NCBI GenBank assembly: GCA_030630935.1
Contig: DAOVMD010000043.1
Span: forward strand, 1-12,364
DNA from: Candidatus Mcinerneyibacteriota bacterium
GTDB lineage: Bacteria > AUK180 > JAQVHJ01
Length of the DNA: 12,364 bases
Reading direction: 5' to 3'
Below are positions 45 to 12,364 of the stretch, one piece after another. The first letter of the stretch is position 1, and every line of letters begins with the position of its first letter. Both the position numbers and the translations under genes were made by a program. The notes under the pieces were generated by a model, which worked only from the letters and a program-made list of their open reading frames with translations, had not been told where the DNA came from and made no database searches.

Positions 45-1016
45 CTAACCCCCTTTTATTATTTTGTTCTCAATATACCGGAACATTTTCGATTTATCCG
101 ATTTCTTTTCGCGCTCCCATTTTGCTCCGAGATATGTGCCAATATCCTGAGCGATAGAAATAAGAATGTTTTTAAAGATGTAATATAATTTAAAAATTGA
201 GTTTAGGTTAGATTTCAAAACAGTTTTGGTTTTATTCTTTATATCTCCTAAAATCCCTTTGATTAGAGAGGTTTTATTTGGGAATAACTGCAGGCCATAA
301 ATATTGTAATTAACTTTATGATCAATAAAGCGTCTTTTGAATTCATAAAGAGGACTCCGGTCGTGTGAGTGAATCACAGGAGCTGATGGCTGGAATGCAA
401 TCTTATAATCATTCAATAAAATTGTTTTCCCCCACTGGTGATCTGATGCAAATTGTGAATCAGGTAAAGGAAACTTCTCCCAAAGATCTCTTCTGATAGC
501 TGATGCCACATTATCAAAATTAACTTTCAATCTTTTCTCAATAGGGGATAACTTGTTAAATTTTTCAACTGATTCAATGGAAATAATTTGAAACTCATCC
601 TTACCTGCTACCCAGTTTCTTATCCCTTCAACACTAACAGGATTTTCAAAAGCTCTTGGTATCTGCCTGCAATATACTCCTGCAATCTTATTATCCAGCT
701 CATAAGTACTAATTAAATTATTCAGCCAATATTTATCATAAGGGATTGCATCCTGTGTAAGGAAGACGAGAAACTTTCCTTTTGAAATCCCCACCCCGTA
801 ATTCCGGGTTTTACCATGACCAAATTCACGGGGTCGGATCTTTATTAACTGAGCCGGATACTTTTTAATTATTTTTAATGTTTTATCTTTTGACCCGGAA
901 TCAATGATTATTACTTCAAAATCAAAGGCGGTCTCTTGAGAAAAGAGCATGTTTAAAACTCGATCTAAATATTTCTCACCATTCTTTGTTGGAATAATAA
1001 TTGAAACACTAATCAT
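45..1016 (-). CDS. Family 2 glycosyltransferase, rhamnosyltransferase-like
   Basis: This 323-residue protein is an inverting GT-A enzyme expected to transfer a sugar from a nucleotide donor to a growing lipid-linked glycan on the cytoplasmic side of the inner membrane. The N-terminal Rossmann-like half starts with VSIIIPTKNG and has the IDSGSKDKT nucleotide-binding turn (38-46). FGHGKTRNYG (65-74) and the DXD-like TQDA (87-90) follow. DNVASAIRR (168-176) and FASDHQWGK (189-197), with its acidic-His pair, form the acceptor and catalytic region. HSHDRS (216-221) and a basic, partly hydrophobic tail (about 250-295) complete it. This motif set is typical of O-antigen rhamnosyltransferases, so L-rhamnose is the likely donor sugar, though donor specificity cannot be proven from motifs. 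The gene lies 104 bases downstream of the phosphodiesterase gene and its stop abuts the next start. A weak AGGA site precedes the ATG. Confidence 0.9.
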   Translation of the reverse strand: MISVSIIIPTKNGEKYLDRVLNMLFSQETAFDFEVIIIDSGSKDKTLKIIKKYPAQLIKIRPREFGHGKTRNYGVGISKGKFLVFLTQDAIPYDKYWLNNLISTYELDNKIAGVYCRQIPRAFENPVSVEGIRNWVAGKDEFQIISIESVEKFNKLSPIEKRLKVNFDNVASAIRRDLWEKFPLPDSQFASDHQWGKTILLNDYKIAFQPSAPVIHSHDRSPLYEFKRRFIDHKVNYNIYGLQLFPNKTSLIKGILGDIKNKTKTVLKSNLNSIFKLYYIFKNILISIAQDIGTYLGAKWEREKKSDKSKMFRYIENKIIKGG

Positions 1017-1075
1017 TATGTTTATCCTGCACTTCTAAGTCATTAATTAAATCCATGAATAACAGATGTATCCTT

Positions 1076-1106
1076 ATTAAAAAACTTACGATTAAATTCA
1101 TGTCAA
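1076..1106 (-). promoter_or_regulatory. Possible internal promoter
   Basis: On the minus strand a perfect TTGACA (1101-1106) is followed after 19 bases by TTTAAT (1076-1081), ahead of the glycosyltransferase starting at 1016. The spacer is longer than the optimal 17 and the surrounding DNA is very AT-rich, so chance is a real possibility. It lies in the only sizeable gap of the operon (1017-1120), where a secondary promoter would make sense. Confidence 0.3.
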
Positions 1107-1120
1107 TCTTAATTTAAAAG

Positions 1121-2632
1121 TTAACCTATATATCCTAAATCTTTAAGCTGCTTCTTAATCTTATCCATATCTCTCTCATCAATATTCTTTTCAGATTGGA
1201 TAATGGTTTCATAAGGCTGTTTAGATTTTGCTGTATTTATAAAATTTTCATTTAGTAGTTCAACCGGGATTCGTCCATCCATATCAATGCCAATAGGGAC
1301 ATTTAGAATCGATAAAATTAAAGGAACAATATCTAGGATTGATAGAGTTGCTCTGTTTTGCTGAGGTTTAAATGCAGGTCCATAACCTGCATAGAATCCA
1401 TTTAGATGATGCATTCCAAATCGTTGATTAGAAATCAAGAGGTCATTCAGGAGGATTTTAGAGTCATAAACCTGAAAATGCATATTATGCATTTCTTTCG
1501 ACCTCATAATATTCGGATTATGCTGAATCTCTAATCGATTGTCAAATTTCCTCAATACTGTAAATAGCTCAAGGTTATTTTCGATTAGTCTTATAGATTT
1601 AATTTTATTAAATGTAGCATCAATCAATTCTCCTGGCAGCTCAATTGTAATAAATCCGTGAGCATAAGTCGGTTTTGCAATTCCATCAAGCTTTAAAGCT
1701 TTTATCATTCCAATCTCTGAAATCCTGAATGTCTTTTGTAATTCTGGAGGGCATGGTTGTGAACCGTGATCAGAGACTATGATATAATTTGTATTTTCAG
1801 AGTTGGCTTCCATGATCCTGGCTAATTGCTTATCAAATTCAATGTAATATTCTGGAATTAAATTCTTCAATTTATTCCGGACTTTAAAATCTAAATTTGT
1901 GAACCATTCCGGTTTATAATGATGCATGAAAATATGCTGAAAAGCGTCAGCTCCATAGTATGCAATTACTCCAAAATCAGTATGAAGTTTTCTTAGTAGA
2001 TGAATAAAAACATCTGTTTTTAGGTAAAGATTACCAAAATGAATTTCAGGTGATGTTGCCTTCCGCCCTATATGAGGAAATTTTCGTTTTACTTTTTTAA
2101 GGTATGATATCGTATTATTTGTCAATCCAAATTTCTTCAGCTTTTTAAACTCTCTCGGTTTATAATGAAACCAATGTTGAGCAAAGTTAAATTCAGGAGG
2201 ATCAGTAAGGTCATTAACTTTTACCCAGATATTTGGGATCATGAAATTGTAAATGGTTTCAGGCGGTGCAGTGAAAAATGCACCGATTGTCCCAATTGAT
2301 AAACCCAGGTGATGTAAAACCTCCCAGACCCTACGAGCTTTCAGTTCGGATTTATTACTGTAAAAACCAAATATATTATGTTTATCTCTTTTCTTTCCTG
2401 TATAAATAGTTGTCCAGACAATCGGTGAAATTGCCGGATTTTCAGATTTCAGGATTCCACAACAACCATCCTGACAAAACTTTTTTAAAGTAAGCAGTTT
2501 CCCTTCATCAAGTAAGGGTTGAATAAATGTTAAAGTTGCTGCATCGAGTCCGATTAAAATTAATTTTGTTTTTGCTTTTTTATATTGAACAATAGGTTTT
2601 TCTTTACGAAATAGTTTTTTAAAAAAGTTCAT
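1121..2632 (-). CDS. Alkaline-phosphatase-superfamily phosphodiesterase, cytoplasmic
   Basis: This 503-residue protein resembles type I phosphodiesterase/nucleotide pyrophosphatase proteins, two-zinc hydrolases of phosphodiester or pyrophosphate bonds. The landmarks are in family order. LILIGLDAAT carries metal ligand Asp30. The nucleophile region NPAISPIVWTTIYTG (65-79) has Ser69 where family members have Ser or Thr. HNIFGF follows. GADAFQH gives Asp229 and His233, VSDHGS gives Asp288 and His289, and a late His408/His409 lies in GMHHLNG. The protein ends in LKDLGYIG, a C-terminal signature frequent in this superfamily. The metal-site residues all appear present, so it should be active. There is no signal peptide: the N-terminus is basic (FKKLFRKEK), so it is predicted to be cytoplasmic. 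Its first 14 bases overlap the end of the upstream glycosyltransferase gene, with a GAGGAA site inside that gene, which implies translational coupling. The substrate is unknown. A polysaccharide precursor, nucleotide sugar or chain terminus is possible by context. Confidence 0.85.
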   Translation of the reverse strand: MNFFKKLFRKEKPIVQYKKAKTKLILIGLDAATLTFIQPLLDEGKLLTLKKFCQDGCCGILKSENPAISPIVWTTIYTGKKRDKHNIFGFYSNKSELKARRVWEVLHHLGLSIGTIGAFFTAPPETIYNFMIPNIWVKVNDLTDPPEFNFAQHWFHYKPREFKKLKKFGLTNNTISYLKKVKRKFPHIGRKATSPEIHFGNLYLKTDVFIHLLRKLHTDFGVIAYYGADAFQHIFMHHYKPEWFTNLDFKVRNKLKNLIPEYYIEFDKQLARIMEANSENTNYIIVSDHGSQPCPPELQKTFRISEIGMIKALKLDGIAKPTYAHGFITIELPGELIDATFNKIKSIRLIENNLELFTVLRKFDNRLEIQHNPNIMRSKEMHNMHFQVYDSKILLNDLLISNQRFGMHHLNGFYAGYGPAFKPQQNRATLSILDIVPLILSILNVPIGIDMDGRIPVELLNENFINTAKSKQPYETIIQSEKNIDERDMDKIKKQLKDLGYIG

Positions 2633-3857
2633 TATACAATTCCTCTAATCTGATTACATGATTGTTTATATTAATTTCATTTTTAAATTCAGGCTTAAAA
2701 TCAAAAGCTTCAGTTTGTATAATTATTGATTTTATATTTTCAGCCAAATTACTGGAATCACCTACTTGAAATACCGCACCAGCTCCGGTTACTTCAACTA
2801 ATTCCTTCATCCCACCCAGGTCCGAGACTAAAAATGGTAATTCGGAAAGATAACTTTCATATATAATTATGGGTGAGTTCTCATACCATTTTGAAGGGAC
2901 AACAAGCAGGTTCATCTGCTTTAATATTTTTGGAACATCTGTATTGTCAATCGCACCATGAAAGAAAATATTCTCTTCAGGAATTGTTCTTGCCCAGGTA
3001 TTAAAATATTTATCATCGCCGCCATTATAACCGTAGATATGTAGTTCGGGGTTTCTTTTTATTTTCAGTTTTTGAAAAACTTTTACTAAAATATCCAAAC
3101 CCTTATGAGGAAGGATTGAACCAATATAAATAATTTTAAATTTATCAGTATTCTTTTTAATATCCGGTAAGATAAATCTTCTAATATCTAATCCGTACCT
3201 TAGCACTTTGAAATTCTTATTATTGATTCCATTCTTTTTATGAACATCCATCAAGAAAAAAGAAGGTGATATTACCGCATTAGCATTATTTAAAATATTA
3301 ACCAGGTATTTATTTCTTTCCCGAACAAGCTTAACTCCAAATGGTATAAGTAAATTTGCAGTAAGAGCAAGGTGATACTTTTGCCTGATACATTCCATAC
3401 AGTTACCTGGATTACTATTATCACAAAGTATACCTGACGGTTTCAGCATTTGAATCAAGGGGCATATAAACCAGAAATCATTAAGTGTTACAATATAAGG
3501 AATATTAATCTTTTCAAGAAATCCCGATGATAATTTTATCAAGTGCTGAATATGTAAAAGGTCCGGTTTAAATTCATTAATTACTTTTAAAATAACTGTA
3601 TCAAGTTTTTTATTGAAATATGTACTTTTAAATCGTTTAATTGGATTCAATCGGGAAGCTTTATTACCAATTGTATAGATTGAAATATTATCTTCTCTTT
3701 TGAATTCGATAGATTTATCTTTTACCTTTTCTGAAAATGCAATGATTCCCACTTCAAGATTTCGCCCAGCTAAATGTTTTGCTAATGTATAAGTGTATAT
3801 TTCAGTCCCACCTTTCTTTTCGGGTGGGATTCCATTTGAAACAAGTAATATCTTCAT
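2619..3857 (-). CDS. Family 4 glycosyltransferase (first of a related pair)
   Basis: This is a 412-residue retaining GT-B enzyme. The N-terminal domain opens with ILLVSNGIPPEKKGGTEIY, where the GGTE loop (16-19) contacts donor or acceptor. The C-terminal domain carries YIGSILPHKGLDIL (244-257) and the classic E-x7-E nucleotide-sugar motif, with Glu326 and Glu334 in ENSPIIIYE. SDLGGMKELVE follows. An insertion in the N-domain holds four cysteines, C132, C145, C153 and C156 (spacings 12, 7 and 2), preceded by DFWFI. The neighbouring protein has the same arrangement. The protein is of normal family length with no membrane segment, so it probably acts at the inner face of the membrane on a lipid-linked acceptor. 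It starts four bases after the upstream gene stops, behind an AAGG site, and its end overlaps the phosphodiesterase gene. Donor and linkage cannot be read from the sequence. Confidence 0.92.
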   Translation of the reverse strand: MKILLVSNGIPPEKKGGTEIYTYTLAKHLAGRNLEVGIIAFSEKVKDKSIEFKREDNISIYTIGNKASRLNPIKRFKSTYFNKKLDTVILKVINEFKPDLLHIQHLIKLSSGFLEKINIPYIVTLNDFWFICPLIQMLKPSGILCDNSNPGNCMECIRQKYHLALTANLLIPFGVKLVRERNKYLVNILNNANAVISPSFFLMDVHKKNGINNKNFKVLRYGLDIRRFILPDIKKNTDKFKIIYIGSILPHKGLDILVKVFQKLKIKRNPELHIYGYNGGDDKYFNTWARTIPEENIFFHGAIDNTDVPKILKQMNLLVVPSKWYENSPIIIYESYLSELPFLVSDLGGMKELVEVTGAGAVFQVGDSSNLAENIKSIIIQTEAFDFKPEFKNEININNHVIRLEELYNELF

Positions 3858-3861
3858 AAAA

Positions 3862-5136
3862 CTATGCCTTGTTTAGTAGCTTGAAATAATAATTTTGAAT
3901 CTCAACTGCATTATCCCGGATAGCTTTAACTTTAGGTAGTTTTTTACTTAGTTCAGCTAAGTCATATTTCTTATTAAGAATACTTAGTATAATTTCTTTT
4001 AATGAATCCGGATCATTTGCTTTGAATTGTAATCCGCTTACATTATGCGGAACTAACTCTGCCATTCCTCCGATATCCGATGTTATTAAGGGAACCCCGC
4101 ACATATATGATTCATGAATTGTTAGAGGTGAGTTCTCATACCAGATACTGGGGATAATCAATGCGTCAAATCTCTTAAGTACATTACCAATATCTTTATT
4201 TTCATATCGGCCCATAAGTTTAATTTTATCATTTCTTAGCATTTGTTTTATATCATGTGAATATATTTTCTTCGTTTTCAGATCACCCCAAATCTCAAGC
4301 TTCACAGGTTTATCTTTTAATTCGTTAAAGGCTTTAATTAAAATCCCGAGTCCTTTATGCGGGAGAATTGAACCAATGAACCCAAATGTATATTCTTCTA
4401 TGTTCTTCGGGATTACCTTTTTCCCCGGGTATAAAGCATGCTCCATTCCATAATCAGAATGAATAATCCGCTCGGGGTCAACTCCCCAGGCCACATAAAC
4501 CTCTCTCAGAAAATCAGATGGTGCAATGATTAAATCAGCAGAATTTAGATTCTTCTTATGTAATGACTCCTTCTTTAATAAGTGATAATAAAAATAAGGC
4601 AACAGGGAAAGAGATATAGGATTTTTACGTATACAACCAAGACAATTTCGCAGCTTCCTTAAAGGTGTACATCGGGAAAGATCCTTCTTTAATAATAGGT
4701 TATTCCAGCAGATATACCAATAATCAGCAATTGTCATTACTACCGGGATATTCCGCCTTTTTACAAGCTCAATAAAATTAATTGAAAGATTTACCAGGTG
4801 CTGAAAATGAACAATATCCGGTTTCAGTTCATTTAATATCCTGATAAAAACTGATTCCAAATAGGGTTCGTAGTACAGGTTCATATACTTTTTTAATTGC
4901 TTTTTCTTTAAACTACGTTCCTGTTTATATAATTTGATCAGGGGGATATCTTCATATTGAGTCTTCTCCATGACCGACTCTACATAAGGGTAACCATCTT
5001 CAAAGGTAAGGATGGTTACATTATGACCAAGTTCCTTCAACTCCTTTGATAAATAATATGTATATAGTTCGGTTCCTGCTTGATGATCAGGTAAGAAAAA
5101 ATGTACAACCTGGAGAATATTTAACTTCTTATCCAT
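3862..5136 (-). CDS. Family 4 glycosyltransferase (second of a related pair)
   Basis: This 424-residue GT-B enzyme is clearly related to the downstream gene product. It has a GTELYTYYLSKEL N-terminal loop (about 21-33), FIGSILPHKGLGIL (253-266) and an E-x7-E motif with Glu334 and Glu342 in ENSPLTIHE, then SDIGGMAELV. The cysteine set is repeated: C143, C156, C165 and C168, preceded by DYWYI. The spacings are 12, 8 and 2, nearly identical to those of its neighbour. The two genes probably arose by duplication or joint recruitment and may add successive sugars of a repeat unit. The stop of this gene's upstream neighbour overlaps its start by one base (TAATG), a common translational coupling arrangement, with a weak GGGAA upstream. 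It is predicted to be cytoplasmic and membrane-associated through its substrate. The sugar specificity is unknown. Confidence 0.92.
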   Translation of the reverse strand: MDKKLNILQVVHFFLPDHQAGTELYTYYLSKELKELGHNVTILTFEDGYPYVESVMEKTQYEDIPLIKLYKQERSLKKKQLKKYMNLYYEPYLESVFIRILNELKPDIVHFQHLVNLSINFIELVKRRNIPVVMTIADYWYICWNNLLLKKDLSRCTPLRKLRNCLGCIRKNPISLSLLPYFYYHLLKKESLHKKNLNSADLIIAPSDFLREVYVAWGVDPERIIHSDYGMEHALYPGKKVIPKNIEEYTFGFIGSILPHKGLGILIKAFNELKDKPVKLEIWGDLKTKKIYSHDIKQMLRNDKIKLMGRYENKDIGNVLKRFDALIIPSIWYENSPLTIHESYMCGVPLITSDIGGMAELVPHNVSGLQFKANDPDSLKEIILSILNKKYDLAELSKKLPKVKAIRDNAVEIQNYYFKLLNKA

Positions 5137-6326
5137 TACTCAAATTCCCATTCGGTTTGTAATGTAATATCACTTGCTTTATCAGACGGTTTAAATAATG
5201 ATATTTCAAATCTCTTAATATCCTTCTTTAAAATATGATATACAGGCTTTTTCATCTCCTCTAAAATTCCAATTGAAAAAGAAAATTCTCCGTGCTTACT
5301 AATAGGTGATTTGAATTTTATCTTAACAGTCTTTTTACCGGTATTATTTTTAATTGAAACTTTTTTTATCTCCCTATAAATCTTTACCTTTTTATCAAAT
5401 CTATCATGAATCTTATAGATAATTAGGTCTAATAGGAGTTTTTCAATATCTTTGGGTGTCTTAACATCAAATTGAATTGAGAAATTTTCAGTAGGATTAA
5501 ATTCAGCAGTCTCTTCACCATTCTCATTAAACACTTTAAAATTATAGATATCATATCCTTCAGAATTAAAAATTATAGTTTTTAACCGTCTCTTTCCGAG
5601 GTTTTCCCTGAAAAGATATTCTCCAATTACATAGTTCGGTTCGTCTTCAATTATTTTTTTACCCTTATCAAGCAAGATTAATTTATTACAAATATCATTC
5701 AGTAAAGCAAGACCATGCGAGACAACAATTACGGTTTTATTTGCTTTCTGAAAAGACTCGAATCGCTTATAGCATTTCTCCTTAAAACTTTCATCTCCTA
5801 CGGCAAGAACTTCATCAATGATCAGGATATCCGGATTAAATGCAGTTGCAACTGAGAAACCCAATCTAACCTTCATTCCTGAGGAGTAAAACTTAAGCAT
5901 CGAATCAATAAAAGAGCCCAACTCAGAATATTCAATAATCTGTTGTTCCCTCTCCTTAATCTCTTTAAAGGAATAACCAAGAAGGGATGCATTTATATAA
6001 ATATTTTCACGTCCTGATAACTCCGGTTTAAAACCTGCTCCCAATTGTAATAAAGTTGAGATTTTTCCCTTAGTTAAAACATTTCCTTCATCAGGCTCCA
6101 TTATCCCGGAGATAACTTTTAAAAGTGTACTTTTCCCTGCACCATTTGCACCGATTATACCGAGAGTTTCACCTTCCCTAACTTTAAAATTAATATTTCG
6201 TAAAGCCCAGAATTTCTCAGTTGTCTGTCTTTTAAATAGATGACTCATTTTTTCTTTCAATGTGAAATATTTAAATCGAACCTTTGTAAACTTCACTCCA
6301 ACATCTGTAATTATAACTTTATCCAT
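5136..6326 (-). CDS. wzt: Polysaccharide ABC exporter, ATP-binding subunit with C-terminal domain (Wzt-like)
   Basis: This 396-residue protein powers export of a finished lipid-linked polysaccharide across the inner membrane. The ATPase domain (about 1-240) is complete: Walker A GANGAGKST (59-67), a Q-loop region near LLQLGAGF (92-99), signature YSSGMKVRLGF (147-157), Walker B ILIIDE (167-172), the D-loop after VLAVGD and the H-loop His204 in VVSHG. A C-terminal extension of about 150 residues follows (from about 250 to 396). It is rich in beta-strand-like segments, as in Wzt proteins of O-antigen exporters, where that domain binds the polysaccharide or its modified non-reducing end. Teichoic acid and capsule exporters without it are shorter. 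The start lies two bases after the stop of the permease gene, so the two subunits are made together. No typical end-capping kinase/methyltransferase gene is visible in this window. Confidence 0.93.
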   Translation of the reverse strand: MDKVIITDVGVKFTKVRFKYFTLKEKMSHLFKRQTTEKFWALRNINFKVREGETLGIIGANGAGKSTLLKVISGIMEPDEGNVLTKGKISTLLQLGAGFKPELSGRENIYINASLLGYSFKEIKEREQQIIEYSELGSFIDSMLKFYSSGMKVRLGFSVATAFNPDILIIDEVLAVGDESFKEKCYKRFESFQKANKTVIVVSHGLALLNDICNKLILLDKGKKIIEDEPNYVIGEYLFRENLGKRRLKTIIFNSEGYDIYNFKVFNENGEETAEFNPTENFSIQFDVKTPKDIEKLLLDLIIYKIHDRFDKKVKIYREIKKVSIKNNTGKKTVKIKFKSPISKHGEFSFSIGILEEMKKPVYHILKKDIKRFEISLFKPSDKASDITLQTEWEFE

Positions 6327-6328
6327 AA

Positions 6329-7126
6329 CTATATCAACTTAATGAATTTATTTCTTAGTTTACTAAATAATATATATCCTATAATTATCAGGATAATTCC
6401 TAAGCCCAGGGAATACATTAAATGACCCCACATAGGGGGTAATATCCCAAAATTTGGGTCTACTCCCATTACAAATTTCATACTTACCACGATTGGCGTC
6501 ATTGGATTTAATAAATATAATTTCTGAAGTAAAGGACCGGATCTATCCGTAACAAGACTGTATGAATAAATAACCGGGGTAAGGAAAAACCATGCCTTAA
6601 AAATCACATCGAGAATTATTGTAATATCCCTGATAAAGATTGTTATTGAACAAAGAATTAAAGATAACCCGATTATCAACGTGAGCTCAATTAAAAGCAA
6701 TATTGGGAAATAAAGCATATATGCTTGAAATGGTACTTTATAAATTGCATATAATGTCAATAGGACAACTAAGGAAATTGCAAAATTAATTACATTTGAA
6801 AAAATTTTTGATAGTGGTAAAATTTCATAGGGGAATCTAATCTGATTCATTATATTAAAACTCTTAAGTATAGAGTTTGCCGATGCAGTGTTGGATGAAA
6901 TAAACATCATCCAGGGTAAAAGTCCTGTAAGAATAGCATAAGGCGGAGTTGATCTTCCAAGTATCTTATCAAATACAAAATAATATACCATCATTAAAAA
7001 TAAGGGCTTCATTACTGACCAAACAAATCCCAAAATTGATCCGTGATATTTTAATTTCATCTCCTTCCTTACTAATAACCAAAGAAGATTGCGGTATGCG
7101 TAAATTTCTTTTAATCTCTTAAACAT
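6329..7126 (-). CDS. wzm: Polysaccharide ABC exporter, permease subunit (Wzm-like)
   Basis: This 265-residue integral inner-membrane protein of the ABC-2 export family is the expected partner of the ATPase encoded directly downstream. An amphipathic N-terminus with LLVRKEMKLKYHGSILGFVW (17-36) is the hallmark interfacial region of Wzm/KpsM/TagG-type permeases. Hydrophobic segments lie at about 35-55, 62-80, 106-128, 138-163, 172-190 and 236-256, giving the usual six-helix layout. FLTPVIYS (181-188) and LNPMTPIV (206-213) are family signatures close to the last third. Length is normal. The ATG overlaps the last eight bases of the upstream glycosyltransferase gene (ATGTTTAA), and no strong ribosome binding site is seen, so translation probably depends on the upstream gene. 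Together with Wzt it would move an undecaprenyl-linked glycan to the periplasm. Confidence 0.93.
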   Translation of the reverse strand: MFKRLKEIYAYRNLLWLLVRKEMKLKYHGSILGFVWSVMKPLFLMMVYYFVFDKILGRSTPPYAILTGLLPWMMFISSNTASANSILKSFNIMNQIRFPYEILPLSKIFSNVINFAISLVVLLTLYAIYKVPFQAYMLYFPILLLIELTLIIGLSLILCSITIFIRDITIILDVIFKAWFFLTPVIYSYSLVTDRSGPLLQKLYLLNPMTPIVVSMKFVMGVDPNFGILPPMWGHLMYSLGLGIILIIIGYILFSKLRNKFIKLI

Positions 7127-7931
7127 TTATTGCACCATTAAAAACTAAATATATTTTTAAAAGAAAATTTTGAAAAGCATTATTATATTTTTTATAATAG
7201 TAAACCTGACTATTTCTATATTCCTTACTGCTGAGCTTTGGGTTGGTTGCTGCAGATTTCCCATGATAATGCTTGAATTTAATATCAGGATTATAAATTA
7301 CTTCATAACCTGCCGATTTTACTCTTCTACAAAGATCTATATCTTCATAATAAATAAAAAAATCCTTGTTAAAACCTTCAACACTATTATAAACATCTTT
7401 TGAGATTAAAAGAAATGAACCCGATGCCCAATCAACAGGAGTTGGGGAGGAAATATATTTTTCAACCTTACTTAAAAACTTTCGGTAATTTATTGAACGA
7501 AGTTTCCAAAGGTTCTTCCATTGAAATTCACGAAGGAAATTCGGGAACCGACCAAAGGATAATTGGATCTTTCCATCTTCTGAAATCTGCTGGCAGCCTA
7601 AAATCCCAACATTATTCAACTTATAAAATTCAAGCGATTTTTCTAATGAATCTTCCTCGAGTACAATATCAGGATTTAAAAATAAAAGAAAACCGCCCTT
7701 TGTATATCCCGCGCCTTTATTGGCAGCAGCTGGAAATCCCAGGTTTTTATGCTCCGGAAATATCCGTATATTGGAATTTGAGAACTCAGCTTTTATCTTA
7801 TTATATTCAATCTCAATATATTCATTATCAATTACAATAACTTCATAATCAATTTTGTTCTTCTTTATTGATTCAAGACATTCTGTAAGCTCTTTGTATG
7901 TATGAAAATTAACAATAACAATGGAAATCAT
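7119..7931 (-). CDS. Family 2 glycosyltransferase, WbbL-like
   Basis: This is a 270-residue GT-A glycosyltransferase. MISIVIVNFHTYKEL opens the nucleotide-binding fold. NLGFPAAANKG (63-73) is the characteristic loop of rhamnosyltransferase-like members. FLNPDIVL (84-91) supplies the DXD-equivalent metal site (NPD). VDWASGSFLLISK (166-178) and FFIYYEDIDLCRRVKSAGY (191-209) form the acceptor/catalytic block with the ED pair. HYHGKSAA (221-228) completes the pattern. Proteins of this type include dTDP-rhamnosyl and related transferases acting early in O-antigen or capsule assembly, so it may prime or extend the linker region. The start codon overlaps the stop of the DUF3108 gene by four bases (ATGA) and is preceded by a strong AAGGAGG site within that gene. 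The protein ends at the usual length for the short members of the family. Confidence 0.91.
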   Translation of the reverse strand: MISIVIVNFHTYKELTECLESIKKNKIDYEVIVIDNEYIEIEYNKIKAEFSNSNIRIFPEHKNLGFPAAANKGAGYTKGGFLLFLNPDIVLEEDSLEKSLEFYKLNNVGILGCQQISEDGKIQLSFGRFPNFLREFQWKNLWKLRSINYRKFLSKVEKYISSPTPVDWASGSFLLISKDVYNSVEGFNKDFFIYYEDIDLCRRVKSAGYEVIYNPDIKFKHYHGKSAATNPKLSSKEYRNSQVYYYKKYNNAFQNFLLKIYLVFNGAINV

Positions 7932-9391
7932 CTACCCTCCTTAAAAAAGTTCTCAAAATTTCCATTGCTCTTTGGCTCACCTTTATTTGAATACCGAATT
8001 AATTCTCCGGTTATGTTCCCAATTTTAATGTTTGTTTTTATCTGAACAGGAATATGCCTAACATCATCAGTTACCCAAATATGAAGTTTACCGGTTGCTT
8101 TAAATATTCCGCTCTCATATTTTAAGTTGGGTTGAATTATTAAAGTGTTGATATTCCCTAAAACCGTATCTAAGCGTTCTTCTCCAACTACTGTGACAGT
8201 TAATTTATAATTTTTTGTTTTTGAATTGGATAGGAGCGTTATTTCATCTCCAACCTTGAAACTCTGAGCTCTTACATAATAAAAAGAGGCAAGAACATCT
8301 TTTACATTTCTCGGGATGGGATATTCTTTATTCTTATATACTAAACTCGAATTCTCCTGATAATAAATAATCTCACGGTCTGCTTTATGCTTACTTTCCC
8401 TTTGATGTTCAATGAATTTTAATGATGCAAAGGAAGTCACATCCATATAGGATTCATAAACATTCCTGATCTTATAGAAGAAATCGAAAAATGATGCCGA
8501 CCTTGCCCGGGATCTAATATGATAGCACTCTTTTCCATTGAATTGGGTTTTCTCAACAACTTCAAGAGTACCAAAGCCAGCCTTCATACCCATATAATGT
8601 AAAGAAAATACCAGGTATTCTCCTTCTTTAAACGCAGAATTATGTACGACATCCGGCTCTTTATATCCCATTTTATCAAGCATTGTATTGTCAATTGAAC
8701 CAAACTCCGATTCAGATAGGAATATTAAATCTTCAAAATTCTCTTTGATATCAGAAATCCGCCACTTCCCACCAGTTCTTTTTAGTGTGAAAACATTGTA
8801 TTTCGAATCCGTTCTCTTTCCCTTAAACATAATTTTAACTTCTGCAAGCTTCTTCCTTTTATCTGTGTGGATTCCTTTGAAATCATAGTCCCGCTTACCA
8901 TAGTCAAACATATATTTCTTTAAATTAATTACTTTCTGCATCCAGGCTCCCCAATCTTGCCCCATCGCATAGGTTTTAAAATAATGATTATCTAATGTGA
9001 GTTTAACAAACTGGGGATAGTTTTTCTCAACTCCTTTTATAAAAGCGAATACTGTTAACCTGGGGTGTGAACAGAGGGCTGGCCCTAATGTCCTCTTAAA
9101 TATACTATTCCAGTATTTATTATTCTTCTTTTCCCAAATACTGAGAACCATATCTAAACCCTTTAAATATTTCTTGGTGTCCTTTTGCCCCATTAAGGAT
9201 ATTGAATAATATAATTTCTTATCAAAATCCCGAGGGTGACGCTTATATTCCTTCGCAAGAATGGATTCCGCTTCCTTATATTTCTTCTCTGCAATCAATC
9301 TTTTACCCTGTGCAAAATCCCCGTAAACCTGGGGAACTAAGAAGATAAAAACCAATGATAAAATTATAAAAATACAAGTTTTTCGCTTCAT
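7928..9391 (-). CDS. Secreted DUF3108 protein with TPR-like N-terminus
   Basis: This 487-residue protein heads the operon. MKRKTCIFIILSLVFIFLVP is a clear Sec signal sequence with a likely cleavage after VYG (24), and no lipobox cysteine is seen, so the mature protein should be periplasmic. Residues about 25-100 look TPR-like (GKRLIAEKKYKEAESILAKE). Residues about 104-220 may be an NTF2-like fold, ending with GGKWRISDIKENF, but this is tentative. The C-terminal part (about 254-467) matches DUF3108 in outline: FKEGEYLVFSLHYMGMKAGF, a SFFDFFYKIRNVYESYMD segment, the VKDVLASFYYVRA block, and a closing HIPVQIKTNIKIGNITGELI. DUF3108 has no firmly established biochemical role. Its place as first gene, in front of an exporter, suggests a periplasmic function linked to the exported glycan. 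A strong AGGAG site (9397-9401) and a promoter precede it. Confidence 0.85.
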   Translation of the reverse strand: MKRKTCIFIILSLVFIFLVPQVYGDFAQGKRLIAEKKYKEAESILAKEYKRHPRDFDKKLYYSISLMGQKDTKKYLKGLDMVLSIWEKKNNKYWNSIFKRTLGPALCSHPRLTVFAFIKGVEKNYPQFVKLTLDNHYFKTYAMGQDWGAWMQKVINLKKYMFDYGKRDYDFKGIHTDKRKKLAEVKIMFKGKRTDSKYNVFTLKRTGGKWRISDIKENFEDLIFLSESEFGSIDNTMLDKMGYKEPDVVHNSAFKEGEYLVFSLHYMGMKAGFGTLEVVEKTQFNGKECYHIRSRARSASFFDFFYKIRNVYESYMDVTSFASLKFIEHQRESKHKADREIIYYQENSSLVYKNKEYPIPRNVKDVLASFYYVRAQSFKVGDEITLLSNSKTKNYKLTVTVVGEERLDTVLGNINTLIIQPNLKYESGIFKATGKLHIWVTDDVRHIPVQIKTNIKIGNITGELIRYSNKGEPKSNGNFENFFKEGR

Positions 9392-9396
9392 TTGCT

Positions 9397-9401
9397 TCTC
9401 C
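9397..9401 (-). promoter_or_regulatory. Ribosome binding site of the DUF3108 gene
   Basis: AAGGAGAAG lies upstream of the ATG at 9389-9391, with the AGGAG core five bases from it. It is the best Shine-Dalgarno match in the operon and fixes the start, which also gives a well-formed signal peptide. Confidence 0.75.
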
Positions 9402-9416
9402 TTTTTTTATTTTATA

Positions 9417-9445
9417 AGTATAACATACTTTCTTTTTTAAGTCAA
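9417..9445 (-). promoter_or_regulatory. Sigma70-type promoter of the polysaccharide operon
   Basis: On the minus strand the -35 box TTGACT (9440-9445) and the -10 box TATACT (9417-9422) are separated by exactly 17 bases. Each box matches five of six consensus positions. The expected transcription start near 9410 would leave a leader of only about 18 bases before the DUF3108 start codon, with no room for a long riboswitch or attenuator. Nine downstream genes, including the one cut at the left edge, follow on the same strand with no clear terminator, so this is probably the main operon promoter. No obvious operator palindrome overlaps the boxes. Confidence 0.75.
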
Positions 9446-9462
9446 ATTATTTAATGTAAAAA

Positions 9463-9503
9463 ATATGGAGTGCATCAGATTCTCAAGCAACTCTGTTGCT
9501 TGA
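9463..9503. repeat. Hairpin 1: direct-repeat tag plus 9-bp stem with TCT loop
   Basis: ATATGGAGTGCATCA (9463-9477) is followed by a perfect inverted repeat with arms TCAAGCAAC (9483-9491) and GTTGCTTGA (9495-9503) around the triloop TCT. A purine-rich tail with repeated CAGA/GCAGA follows to about 9540. No T-run follows on either strand, so it is not a standard terminator. It lies just upstream of the -35 box of the operon promoter. Confidence 0.65.
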
Positions 9504-9599
9504 ACAGAGAGCAGATATCAGAGATCTAAGAACAGAAAAGGGTTATTTTAATGGTTCGAGTTCAGGTTTAAGAAAAGTATTATAAGCATTTAGTACAGT

Positions 9600-9645
9600 A
9601 TATGGAGTGCATCAACAAAATCTCTGATTTTGCTGATGCTTTTTT
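9600..9645 (+). terminator. Hairpin 2: direct-repeat tag, TCT-loop stem and T-run
   Basis: The second ATATGGAGTGCATCA copy (9600-9614) leads into a stem of six plus seven base pairs with one mismatch: GCATCA (9609-9614) with TGATGC (9634-9639), and CAAAATC (9616-9622) with GATTTTG (9626-9632), around a TCT loop. Six T bases follow at once (9640-9645), giving a rho-independent terminator shape for plus-strand transcription. No plus-strand gene ends here, so it may be a repeat-family member that happens to look like a terminator. Confidence 0.4.
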
Positions 9646-9664
9646 AATTGTTTTCAAACATTTC

Positions 9665-9793
9665 ATACGGGAGGATCAAATTCATTTGGTTAGGGCATGT
9701 TTGGTTAGCTATGTTAACCAAACCAGAGCAGAGAACTGACCCAGAACCACGCACTTCGTTAGGGTATCTGGCCGCGGAAACAGTTGTTTTATA
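9665..9793. repeat. Hairpin-bearing repeat, copy 1 (with 34-base insertion)
   Basis: This copy starts ATACGGGAGGAT and aligns base by base with 11271-11356, in the same orientation. It contains the dyad GTTTGGTTAGC (9699-9709) and GTTAACCAAAC (9713-9723) around TAT. One position is G opposite T, which would still pair as G-U in plus-strand RNA. A purine-rich tail ending AGAACCAC (9743-9750) follows. Bases 9751-9784 are absent from copy 2, and identity resumes at TGTTTTATA (9785-9793). Confidence 0.75.
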
Positions 9794-10068
9794 GAAAGCA
9801 GATAGCAGAAAAGAAAAGAGTTTATCTTATTTATCAGTAAGAGTACGAGTAAGAGACGTTTGAGATAAAAAACTTCTCGATTAGGGGAGCTCCCATGAAC
9901 CACTAAAAAAACAGGTTCAGGACTAAAGAACTCTTACTTCTTACACAAACTGAAGTTTGGACGCTTCGCTAGATCTTGCTTCGCTGCGATGCGAGGGAAA
10001 CTTTTGGTGAAGCAAATATGGAAAAAGTATTCTTACGATTACTGACATAAAAACTCCAGGAGCAATTC

Positions 10069-10120
10069 TTGTTAGAGCTTCTTTTAAAAATAAAGCGCAC
10101 GAATTAAAAGAATCTAACAA
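10069..10120. repeat. Long inverted repeat downstream of the TPR gene
   Basis: Arms 10069-10087 and 10104-10120 pair over 17 base pairs (eight plus nine), with a two-base GC bulge at 10077-10078 in the left arm and a 16-base loop. It lies about 40 bases beyond the stop of the TPR gene, where an mRNA 3' end would be expected. No T-run follows on the minus strand, so it is a possible 3' stabilising structure or rho-dependent end rather than a classic terminator. Confidence 0.55.
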
Positions 10121-10161
10121 ATAATACTGGGGATATCTGCTTCAGTTTGCTTAATTATTTC

Positions 10162-10908
10162 TTATTTCCCCTTTGTTAATGAATGATACATTGCCATATC
10201 ATTTTTTGATCCTTCCAAATCCCCGATTTTCTCTTTGATAATTGCTCGGTTGTAAAAAGCAGAAGAATAATACCAATCAATTTCAATTGCTTTACTAAAA
10301 TCGGCTATTGCACTTACATAATCGTTTAAATATTTTTTGACTTCTCCACGCTTATTGTAAAGGATAGCATTATTCGGATCAATTTCAATTGCTTTAGTAA
10401 AATCTTCAATGGCTTCTTCGAAATATCCTTCTTTTCTTTTTATCAGCGCTCGGTTGAAATAAGCATCTTTATATTTAGGGTCAATTTCAATTGCTTTAGT
10501 AAAATCTTTAATTGCTCCTTCATAGTTATAGTATTGAAATTCTTTCAAAACTATCCCGCGTCTGAAATAAGCTTCTGCATAATTCGGATTAATTTCAATT
10601 GCTTTTGTTAAATCTGCTACAGCATCTTTGTATTTTTCTGTTTGATATTTTGCAACTCCAAGGAAAGTGTATGCTAAATAATAATTTGAATCTATTTCAA
10701 TGATTTGGTTAAATAGAATAATTGCCTTTTCGTATTCCAAATATGATGCCCAATATCTGAATTTTTTCTTTTTAAGGTATTGAGAATCATGTTCAATTAA
10801 GAAACAATAATTTTCATTGTTTCGTTCTATATCCGTACTATTGATTAAATAAAAGGCTTCATTAAAAAGCTCTTCAATTTTCTCAGATATCGGTTTATCT
10901 TTCATCAT
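10162..10908 (-). CDS. TPR-repeat protein
   Basis: This 248-residue protein is built mainly of tetratricopeptide repeats, helix-turn-helix units used for protein-protein contact. After an N-terminal region of about 45 residues with no repeat signature, about five to six units follow, ending in the recurring DFTKAIEIDPN phrase (near 99-109, 135-145, 169-179 and 203-212). One unit carries a two-residue insertion (LKEFQYYNYEGA). There is no signal peptide or membrane segment, so it is predicted to be cytoplasmic. There is no enzyme domain, so no catalytic role is suggested and the partner is unknown. Two Met codons are adjacent (10906-10908 and 10903-10905); the first is nine bases from an AAGAAG site and is used here. 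It follows the 69-residue gene after 35 bases and probably shares its promoter. It is separated from the polysaccharide operon by about 0.7 kb of repeats. Confidence 0.85.
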   Translation of the reverse strand: MMKDKPISEKIEELFNEAFYLINSTDIERNNENYCFLIEHDSQYLKKKKFRYWASYLEYEKAIILFNQIIEIDSNYYLAYTFLGVAKYQTEKYKDAVADLTKAIEINPNYAEAYFRRGIVLKEFQYYNYEGAIKDFTKAIEIDPKYKDAYFNRALIKRKEGYFEEAIEDFTKAIEIDPNNAILYNKRGEVKKYLNDYVSAIADFSKAIEIDWYYSSAFYNRAIIKEKIGDLEGSKNDMAMYHSLTKGK

Positions 10909-10943
10909 AATTATTTCTTCTTGATTGTATATAACAAAGTTCC

Positions 10944-11153
10944 TTATGTGACTGTGCCTTCACCTTGATTTTTTTTATATACATCAGCTTTAGTTTTATC
11001 GAGAAATTCTTTTTCATAGAGATTGTTATGTATTATTTCAATATCATTAATCGGGATGTCACATCTTTCGAACAAATTCTCAGCGGAAATCCACGGTTCA
11101 TCAAATACTTTAATTGTATCATGTAATTTTTTTTCTTGTTTAGATATGTTCAT
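10944..11153 (-). CDS. Small unknown protein, 69 residues
   Basis: I do not recognise this gene. The product is acidic to neutral, has no signal peptide or membrane span, and reads as mostly helical: a lysine-rich start (ISKQEKKLHDTIKVF), then ISAENLFERCDIPINDIEII, then a short helix NNLYEKEFLDK. A segment-turn-helix followed by another helix could be a winged-helix or other small binding fold, but no motif proves it. Support for being real comes from an AGG site five bases before the ATG, a good promoter about 30 bases upstream, and a position directly in front of the TPR gene in the same direction. It could act with the TPR protein. Confidence 0.6.
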   Translation of the reverse strand: MNISKQEKKLHDTIKVFDEPWISAENLFERCDIPINDIEIIHNNLYEKEFLDKTKADVYKKNQGEGTVT

Positions 11154-11181
11154 TTAAACCTAGTTTTTTATTTTTCAATTT

Positions 11182-11211
11182 ATTCTAACATATAAATTGA
11201 TTATAAGTCAA
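11182..11211 (-). promoter_or_regulatory. Sigma70-type promoter of the small gene and TPR gene
   Basis: On the minus strand TTGACT (11206-11211) and TAGAAT (11182-11187) are separated by 18 bases, upstream of the ATG at 11153. The leader would be about 20 bases. The spacer end and -10 read TATGTTAGAAT, close to the TATGTTATACT of the polysaccharide operon promoter, and the -35 with the next two bases (TTGACTTA) is identical. Confidence 0.6.
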
Positions 11212-11270
11212 GTGAAATTTAGTTATGAGGGATGTAAGGTTACATTTTATTGCAGCATTATGTTTAATTT

Positions 11271-11356
11271 ATACGGGAGGATTAAATTATTTTGGTCAGG
11301 GCATGTTTGGTTAACTCTGTTAACCAAACCGAGAACAGAGAACGGAGAACCACTGT
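11271..11356. repeat. Hairpin-bearing repeat, copy 2
   Basis: This is a direct-orientation copy of 9665-9793. It begins ATACGGGAGGAT and contains a perfect 11-bp stem: GTTTGGTTAAC (11305-11315) and GTTAACCAAAC (11319-11329) around the triloop TCT. It continues with a GAGAACAGAGAAC purine-rich tail and ends AGAACCAC-TGTTTTATA. It lacks the 34-base segment found in copy 1 and so looks like the uninterrupted form. Confidence 0.75.
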
Positions 11357-11547
11357 TTTATAAATGAAAGTTTAAATGAAAAAACATAAGAAATGAATTT
11401 ATCTTCATTTGGTAATTAAGGATAATTAAAAAGTTTTATATTAAGAAATATTGCTTTAAACCAAAGCATTGTAATATATAAAGCAAAATCATTCTTAATT
11501 CTTCATTTTTCACTCTTCATTCTTACTTGTGAAGCGACGCGAAGCTG

Positions 11548-12364
11548 TCACCAATTATTATCCTTCTCATATCCCAGTCTAATCAGGAGGTCTCCTGAGA
11601 TTTCCTTGAAGAGTTTTTTATGTTCAGGTTTGAAAAAATCGCGATATGTGCCGATTTGGCCTTTATGAAAAGTCATACTCTTTTTCCAAAACACATTTTG
11701 ACTGATATATTCAACAAGGTCATTTTTTGGCTCTATCTCAAGATAATTTAAGATTTGTTTAATAGTTTTAATTTGAGCTTTTAAATCACCACCCCCGACT
11801 TCACCAATAAGATCTTCAAACTTGACAGTTAAAACATTATCATTGTTTAACCAGCGGTTAAATCTTTTAAAGTTAGAAGGAATAGAAGATAAATTTAAAT
11901 TTTTGTATTGTGCGTAATTTAATCCTAATGCCTTTTTAAGTTTTTGTATCTTAATAAAAAAATATAATTTTTTATTCTCTTCTACGTTTCTAATACCACC
12001 AATTGTATATTTTAACTTTTCATCAATATCTTTTATTTTTTTGAAGAAACTATATAACCTATATGATTCGAATTTCCTATAATGATTTGCTAAGGAGACT
12101 GCAATATCCCGGGGATCCCTGATAATAAGAATATGTTTGTAGTTTAAGTTTAAAAGAATTTTTTCCAAACTTTTATGATAACGAAGATGTGCAAATCTAA
12201 ATTCACCAGGTTTACATGTTGAAAAAAACTTTTCAAGAAATGATAATGGTAAAGATCGGATTGTATAAGAATTTTTGTCATAATTAATTTTGTCCTGGTT
12301 TTTCTTTACAAAATTTTCAAGATTTTTTTCTAATTGAGTATATTCCCCTGTTAAGGAAACACAT
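11548..12364 (-). CDS. Sulfotransferase-family protein, 5' end missing
   Basis: The frame is open from the right edge to the TGA at 11548-11550, giving 271 residues; the start lies outside the window. The fold is that of PAPS-dependent sulfotransferases, which move a sulfuryl group from 3'-phosphoadenosine 5'-phosphosulfate to a hydroxyl or amine. The 3'-phosphate-binding block is clear: HILIIRDPRDIAVSL (about residues 77-91 of the visible part), followed by LTVKFEDLIG and the C-terminal HKGQIGTYRDFF, equivalent to the RKG-GDW motif, then LLIRLGY. The N-terminal PAPS loop (PKSGTT type) is not in view and must lie upstream. The substrate is unknown, and a glycan is plausible next to a polysaccharide locus. 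A TTG at 12166-12168 could be mistaken for a start, but the upstream codons are in frame and family-like (GEFRFAHLRYHKS), so it is internal. Confidence 0.85.
   Translation of the reverse strand, partial: CVSLTGEYTQLEKNLENFVKKNQDKINYDKNSYTIRSLPLSFLEKFFSTCKPGEFRFAHLRYHKSLEKILLNLNYKHILIIRDPRDIAVSLANHYRKFESYRLYSFFKKIKDIDEKLKYTIGGIRNVEENKKLYFFIKIQKLKKALGLNYAQYKNLNLSSIPSNFKRFNRWLNNDNVLTVKFEDLIGEVGGGDLKAQIKTIKQILNYLEIEPKNDLVEYISQNVFWKKSMTFHKGQIGTYRDFFKPEHKKLFKEISGDLLIRLGYEKDNNW

Follow-up and report, generated by a model that had tools for sequence, protein, structure and literature searches.

Dispersed palindromes are common in bacteria. The BOX repeats of Streptococcus pneumoniae (boxA-boxB-boxC) are mosaics of hairpin modules with a repeated block of variable copy number, and filamentous cyanobacteria carry short tandem heptamer repeats, 7-nt arrays in intergenic DNA. 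The GTAG/CGTC REP elements (Di Nocera et al. 2013, PMC3733652) are short, high-copy extragenic palindromes that have short loops and compensated stem variants. It is seldom possible to tell from the sequence of a bacterial palindrome whether the folded DNA or its RNA does the work. Extrusion of the promoter hairpins of phage N4 needs a C-G closing pair together with the 5’ G and the 3’ A of a 3-nt loop, the ends of which form a sheared G:A pair (PMC4496689), and a title cited in PMC11101458 credits GNA loops with giving extraordinarily stable DNA minihairpins. Template switching between the arms of short inverted repeats homogenises the arms and inverts the spacers, and the published flips within hairpins include ttc-to-gaa (PMC8604942).

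Here we analyse hairpins in a 12,364-nucleotide stretch of DNA (the window), which lies on contig 176 of a 3.16 Mb MAG that is 80% complete. The host, an uncultured bacterium, belongs to a phylum represented by only 7 genomes in the search set, and among named sequences its RecA comes nearest, at 71% identity, to one labelled candidate division KSB1. The hairpins are true, strongly over-represented and lineage-specific palindromic repeats. They are of a known kind, most likely non-autonomous dispersed palindromic repeats of REP/BOX-like character that are built as mosaics, and the rule at their apex is unusual and testable.

Repeats in the window

Positions 45-9391 of the window, all on the minus strand, hold an operon-like run of glycosyltransferase-like genes together with an ABC exporter (Wzm/Wzt-like), a phosphodiesterase-type protein and a DUF3108 protein (Pfam; gene at 7928-9391), probably a polysaccharide export locus. 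The repeats and the two best promoter-like sites of the window are as follows.

9417-9445, minus strand: promoter-like TTGACT-17-TATACT ahead of the DUF3108 gene; the repeats start just upstream of its -35
9463-9477, plus strand: tag ATATGGAGTGCATCA of module X, 5’ half only, joined to a family-A hairpin; 15-mer identical to 9600-9614
9483-9503, plus strand: dyad TCAAGCAAC-TCT-GTTGCTTGA, family-A hairpin of stem type CAAGCAAC, loop C(TCT)G; about 40 more strong matches in its own genome
9504-9535, plus strand: purine-rich 7-mer tail, degenerate and lacking the GTTTTATAGA end; period-7 tandem repeat at 9505-9526
9600-9645, plus strand: complete module X (tag, hairpin 9609-9639 and T-run); its homologues have compensated stems
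9609-9639, plus strand: dyad GCATCA-a-CAAAATC-TCT-GATTTTG-c-TGATGC, family X, loop C(TCT)G
9662-9698, plus strand: module H (TTCATACGGGAGGATCAAATTCATTTGGTTAGGGCAT); 54 own-genome matches, with two classes of 3’ partner
9699-9723, plus strand: dyad GTTTGGTTAGC-TAT-GTTAACCAAAC, family-A hairpin of stem type GTTTGGTTAAC, loop C(TAT)G; a single G-T mismatch adjoins the closing pair
9724-9795, plus strand: 7-mer tail that ends in the conserved AACAGTTGTTTTATAGA (9779-9795, 0 mismatches) and contains an inserted hairpin module (GACCCAGAACC...GGTATCTGG) at about 9738-9777; this composite tail is common to many copies
11182-11211, minus strand: promoter-like TTGACT-18-TAGAAT, with repeats R, H and A immediately upstream of it
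11231-11268, minus strand: repeat R (14 copies), which also flanks a RAYT-like gene on contig C338
11268-11304, plus strand: second copy of module H, part of a 63-nt repeat that is 89% identical to 9662-9724
11305-11329, plus strand: dyad GTTTGGTTAAC-TCT-GTTAACCAAAC, family-A hairpin of stem type GTTTGGTTAAC, loop C(TCT)G
11330-11350, plus strand: 7-mer tail, 3.4 copies of AACAGAG; tandem array 11327-11350

The sequence confirms all four dyads that the original prediction had placed here, as well as the identical 15-base tag in front of two of them, and the purine-rich tails that it described are real and consist of arrays of 7-mers. It had also called the stems unrelated; this fails for 9699-9723 and 11305-11329, which are contained in the 63-nt repeats 9662-9724 and 11268-11330, but it is true that the stems vary within the families. 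Repeats begin immediately upstream of both promoter-like sites, as expected if insertions occupy the space that promoters leave free. The window holds further 7-base tandem arrays, TCATTCT x5 (11489-11524) and AGAAAGC x2.7 (9793-9811), and a 7-base period is also present in other intergenic repeats of the genome.

Repeat families and mosaic structure

The window dyads are members of genome-wide repeat families, three of them in family A and the dyad at 9609-9639 in family X. A family-A element consists of a hairpin, then units close to CAGAGAA, CAGATAG or CTGAGAA, and then CAGTCGTTTTATAGA. Its tail end CAGTYGTTTTATAGA occurs 179 times in the 3.16 Mb MAG and 0 times when the pattern is reversed as a control, and its stems covary (see below), which bears out the predicted repeat family with a variable stem. 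The distance from hairpin to tail end changes in steps of seven (16, 23, 30, 44; 21, 28). Searches of the genome with three query repeats gave at least 54, at least 48 and at least 43 matches, and in two of the three the candidates far outnumbered the matches scored. Nearly all copies (110 of 115) are found outside ORFs of 100 aa or longer, and their orientation relative to genes is not strongly biased. Family A was not found in six relatives from the same small phylum, nor in the GTDB genome collection, viral contigs, plasmids or phages.

Family X, defined by the tag ATATGGAGTGCATCA, has about 16 clear copies with AT-rich stems, followed in most copies by a T-run; its inner stems are partly compensated, with the variants CTTAAATC/GATTTAAA, GGTAAATC/GATTTACC and ACAAAATC/GATTTTGC. 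The order of the mosaic is 5’ module, DNA hairpin, 7-mer purine tail, 3’ module, and the parts are found in several combinations. Two kinds of partner follow head module H (CATACGGGAGGATTAAATTC..GGTCAGGG): the GTTTGGTTAAC hairpin at some loci, and at others a GC-rich palindrome of type GGGCGCCCGGCCGGTCGCCCCTAC. At 9463-9477 and at other loci an A hairpin is attached to the 5’ half of X, the 3’ half of X being absent from the following stretch, and some family-A tails contain an extra hairpin module, ACCCAGAACC..GGGTATCTGG. The junctions of H, X and the tail module thus show that module joins fall at hairpins. A retro-element with a conserved 3’ end and a variable 5’ end was rejected, there being no RVT_1 in the 80% complete genome.

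Some loci depart from the common form. On contigs C259 and C377 (loci L199 and L218) the family-A triloop is enlarged by an inserted sub-hairpin (TCTCATATACCACG..GGGTATACGAC..). Perfect stems as long as 18 and 20 bp were each seen once (L029 on C242 and L133 on C70), with TCT and TCA loops and a standard tail, and are possibly fresh fold-back events. Another abundant mosaic repeat (L076, L086, L093, L105 and others) has GTTCAA-rich arrays around GCATGC-(TTC/TTT)-GCATGC.

Constraint on the apex loop

To avoid choosing copies by their likeness to TCT, we collected 127 copies of family A by tail end only. Of these, 75 have a C-closed triloop: T occupies position 1 in 67, while C, T, A and G occur 44, 19, 10 and 2 times at position 2, and a pyrimidine stands at position 3 in 69; 28 of the 75 are TCT. 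Counted as T/C, position 1 is 67/0 and position 3 is 46/23 (Fisher 3e-8, although the copies are not independent). Because T-to-C change is absent from position 1 (0/67) and common at position 3 (23/69), the rule is C(TNY)G, which on the other strand is C(RNA)G. The constant TCT loop of the original prediction is therefore replaced by a broader constraint, TNY being the rule, that recurs in several repeat families. In a handful of copies the loop (AGA, GAA, GGA, AAA, ATA) is inverted with respect to the tail.

Triloop hairpins with stems of at least 6 bp were then counted in 80 contigs chosen by number and not by content (73 usable, 526 kb without N), with expectations taken from dinucleotide shuffles. 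C(TNY)G hairpins number 68 against 7.3 in shuffled sequence, compared with 24 against 18 for other C-closed, 34 against 27 for G-closed and 232 against 203 for A/T-closed triloops. In a count with stems of at least 7 bp, C-TCT-G is found 13 times against 0.4, so that the apex bias proposed originally passes its own test, and C-TTT-G 9 against 0.8, C-TAC-G 6 against 0 and C-TCC-G 5 against 0.4. The shuffles rule out a chance origin of the dyads. In relatives of the same phylum (327 kb pooled) C(TNY)G hairpins number 10 against 5.3 and the bias is absent; one relative, G005, has 5 against 0.7, a number too small to judge. The same count of C(RNA)G against other C-closed triloops can serve as a test for other genomes.

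Raw counts overstate independence, since copies are related by descent, and loop constancy might be inheritance and no rule at all if two or three C(TCT)G founder hairpins had been amplified. Most of the 68 sample hairpins do belong to a few amplified families, with tails common to the copies. Simple descent is nevertheless hard to reconcile with a family-A loop whose middle base is free, whose position 3 has gone from T to C in a third of copies and whose position 1 is never C. Outside families A and X there remain 39 copies against 7.2, and 17 distinct stems against 5.9, though for distinct stems the bias relative to other C-closed loops reaches only p = 0.01. Unrelated families, namely X, GCATGC-TTC/TTT-GCATGC, AGTCCC-TAC-GGGACT, TATCCC-TAC-GGGATA and TACAGC-TTC-GCTGTA, carry the same class of apex, family X also accepting the loops GGT, ACT and AAT. 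We consider descent alone an unlikely explanation.

Stem covariation and the folded form

Stems of the repeats change in step. Cells changed on both sides number 127 against 46 in shuffles, part of the 127 stemming from one split between two main stem types, and the covariation score is 0.546 against 0.217, slid controls being all far lower. Paired cells make up 91.7%, compared with 73.8% in shuffles and 19-43% when slid; 9 of 11 pairs have changed on both sides, and among the listed stems are about a dozen variants that were compensated separately. Intermediates are few, G-T pairs making up only about 6 of 539 cells.

The loops resemble those of DNA minihairpins. C(GNA)G, which combines the C-G closing pair with a GNA triloop, is found 28 times against 1-3 in shuffles. 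C(ANA)G, outside the strict GNA rule, accounts for the other 40 of the 68 loops against 5-6. A...A loop ends probably act like G...A ends. With a G-C closing pair these loops occur at near-chance levels (G(GNA)C 4 against 4-6, ANA 7 against 2-8). A DNA folding program calculates nearly the same energy for both strands; it seems to include no extra stability term for C(RNA)G loops. Stems that change together, with a loop rule that fits DNA minihairpin chemistry, argue for folded DNA, and the pattern in the sequence suggests that a folded single DNA strand may be the form that is copied or recognised.

Transcribed hairpins acting as terminators or mRNA stabilisers would also be extragenic, as family A is, and the T-run after most copies of family X would suit them. 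Family A, however, has no T-run, and a scan of 9300-11600 detected no intrinsic terminator (GC-rich stem plus T-run), the T-run of family X following an AT-rich stem. The hairpin side shows little preference between gene starts (44) and gene ends (54), the RNA tetraloops are not enriched (C(TTCG)G absent, GNRA 23 against 17-23 in shuffles), G-U intermediates are as rare as the G-T cells above, and the window has no Rfam match, which also removes known RNA families as candidates. We regard RNA-level elements as improbable.

Hairpins bound by a protein as DNA, like N4 promoters or a supercoil-sensing site, and selected beside promoters, would account for GNA loops on the purine strand, since this is the N4 promoter apex. 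Outward promoter-like sites are also more frequent on the hairpin side (21 of 115) than in the other three placements (6-10). Yet most copies have no promoter-like site nearby, the promoter spacing is not fixed and no stem bases are conserved except AAC/GTT, which makes such a binding site extremely improbable.

Y1 transposases and repeat R

Three Y1_Tnp genes are present in the MAG, two of them RAYT-like, with NF047646 matches that fall short of its cut-off, and one IS200-type. The RAYT-like gene on C338 encodes a 290-aa protein with a C-terminal helix-turn-helix and is bracketed by repeat R (GAAGTAAACATAATACTGCAACAAAATGCAACCCCCGTCCC, variant GGGACAAAATGGGAGCACCGTCCC) in inverted orientation (L145:8892-9810); R is without a C(TNY)G triloop. 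The flank result for RAYT is that of C338, as the 5’ flank of the other gene, on C343, lies beyond the contig end. Repeat R and this gene are likely to form an autonomous element that has solo copies elsewhere, among them the one at 11231-11268. No RAYT protein was found in viral contigs. The truncated IS200-type gene on contig C247 (L144:540-1200) lies within an array of AGCTCC-GTA-GGAGC-type hairpins with C(GTA)G loops, and its 3’ end is formed by related repeats; it was the only gene found that bears on an IS200/IS605-derived MITE, which would have subterminal hairpins and cleavage tetranucleotides matching a resident transposase.

The original prediction had the repeats mobilised or bound by a protein that reads the apex, possibly a REP-type Y1 transposase. 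Such genes do exist here, and the IS200-type one sits among C(GTA)G hairpins, as might be expected of REP elements proper that are moved by a RAYT or IS200-type Y1 transposase. The RAYT-like gene on C338, though, goes with repeat R and not with this triloop, no family-A copy adjoins a Y1 gene in the loci read, and the GTAG or CGTC foot is absent from the flanks of family-A hairpins. We found no protein linked to family A that would read its apex or mobilise it, and we judge the REP interpretation rather improbable for this family.

Proposed mechanism

The explanation that we favour by a modest measure is that the repeats are REP/BOX-like mosaics in which the hairpin acts as single-stranded DNA and its arms are homogenised by template switching. 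We infer that the hairpin works in single-stranded form, and the steps could be as follows. The purine-loop strand, C(RNA)G, would close a very tight tip, a sheared R.A pair on the C-G pair, so that, whether on supercoiled DNA or on a lagging-strand template, the palindrome would extrude or fold with ease. A polymerase may then switch template at the hairpin and copy one arm onto the other, which would keep stems perfect while their sequence drifts; the switch might sometimes invert the loop, and it could join modules at hairpins. Template switching would thereby explain the perfect but drifting stems, the flipped loops and the joins at hairpins. Loops that fold best would persist and be copied most, so many stems would converge on one apex rule, and such a rule is to be expected if folding is the limiting step.

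A single-stranded DNA process in this lineage, whether an enzyme or the replication machinery, might moreover pick hairpins by their C(RNA)G tip whatever the stem, driving unrelated families to one apex. We put this forward tentatively, as possible rather than probable; if true, the repeats would document, across a whole genome, hyperstable DNA minihairpins at work in a chromosome. No empty sites or transposition events were seen, and of the agents that might spread the elements to new sites, a Y1/HUH transposase working on this single-stranded fold is the likeliest candidate. With their paired stems, loops and flipped loops, the repeats offer natural material for work on template switching and cruciform extrusion.

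Comparison with known systems

BOX-type repeats, as generally described, share with the present repeats the mosaic of hairpin modules and the variable repeated block, whereas in this MAG modules are exchanged between several repeat families. The heptamer arrays of cyanobacteria have the same intergenic 7-nt period; family-A units differ in being degenerate, in ending in CAGTYGTTTTATAGA when complete and in usually being capped by a hairpin. Integron attC sites also have AAC/GTT, but at their outer ends, while family A has it at the loop.

Family A resembles the GTAG/CGTC REP elements in being a high-copy extragenic palindrome of 20-40 bp, judged by the tail-motif and placement counts given above. 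It differs from them in having a 7-mer tail and no GTAG/CGTC foot, in that the RAYT of its own genome is flanked by another repeat, and in its apex, C(TNY)G compared with TY or CMA loops (PMC3733652). The hairpins of the N4 virion RNA polymerase promoters (PMC4496689) have the same 3-nt loop, C-G closing pair, purine...A ends and partly free stem, whereas the MAG repeats occur by the hundred in a bacterial chromosome and have ANA loops as well. Quasipalindrome template-switch mutation (PMC8604942, PMC8794818) likewise homogenises arms and inverts loops; it has been described at single sites, whereas here whole repeat families are involved, and these carry a bias in loop sequence.
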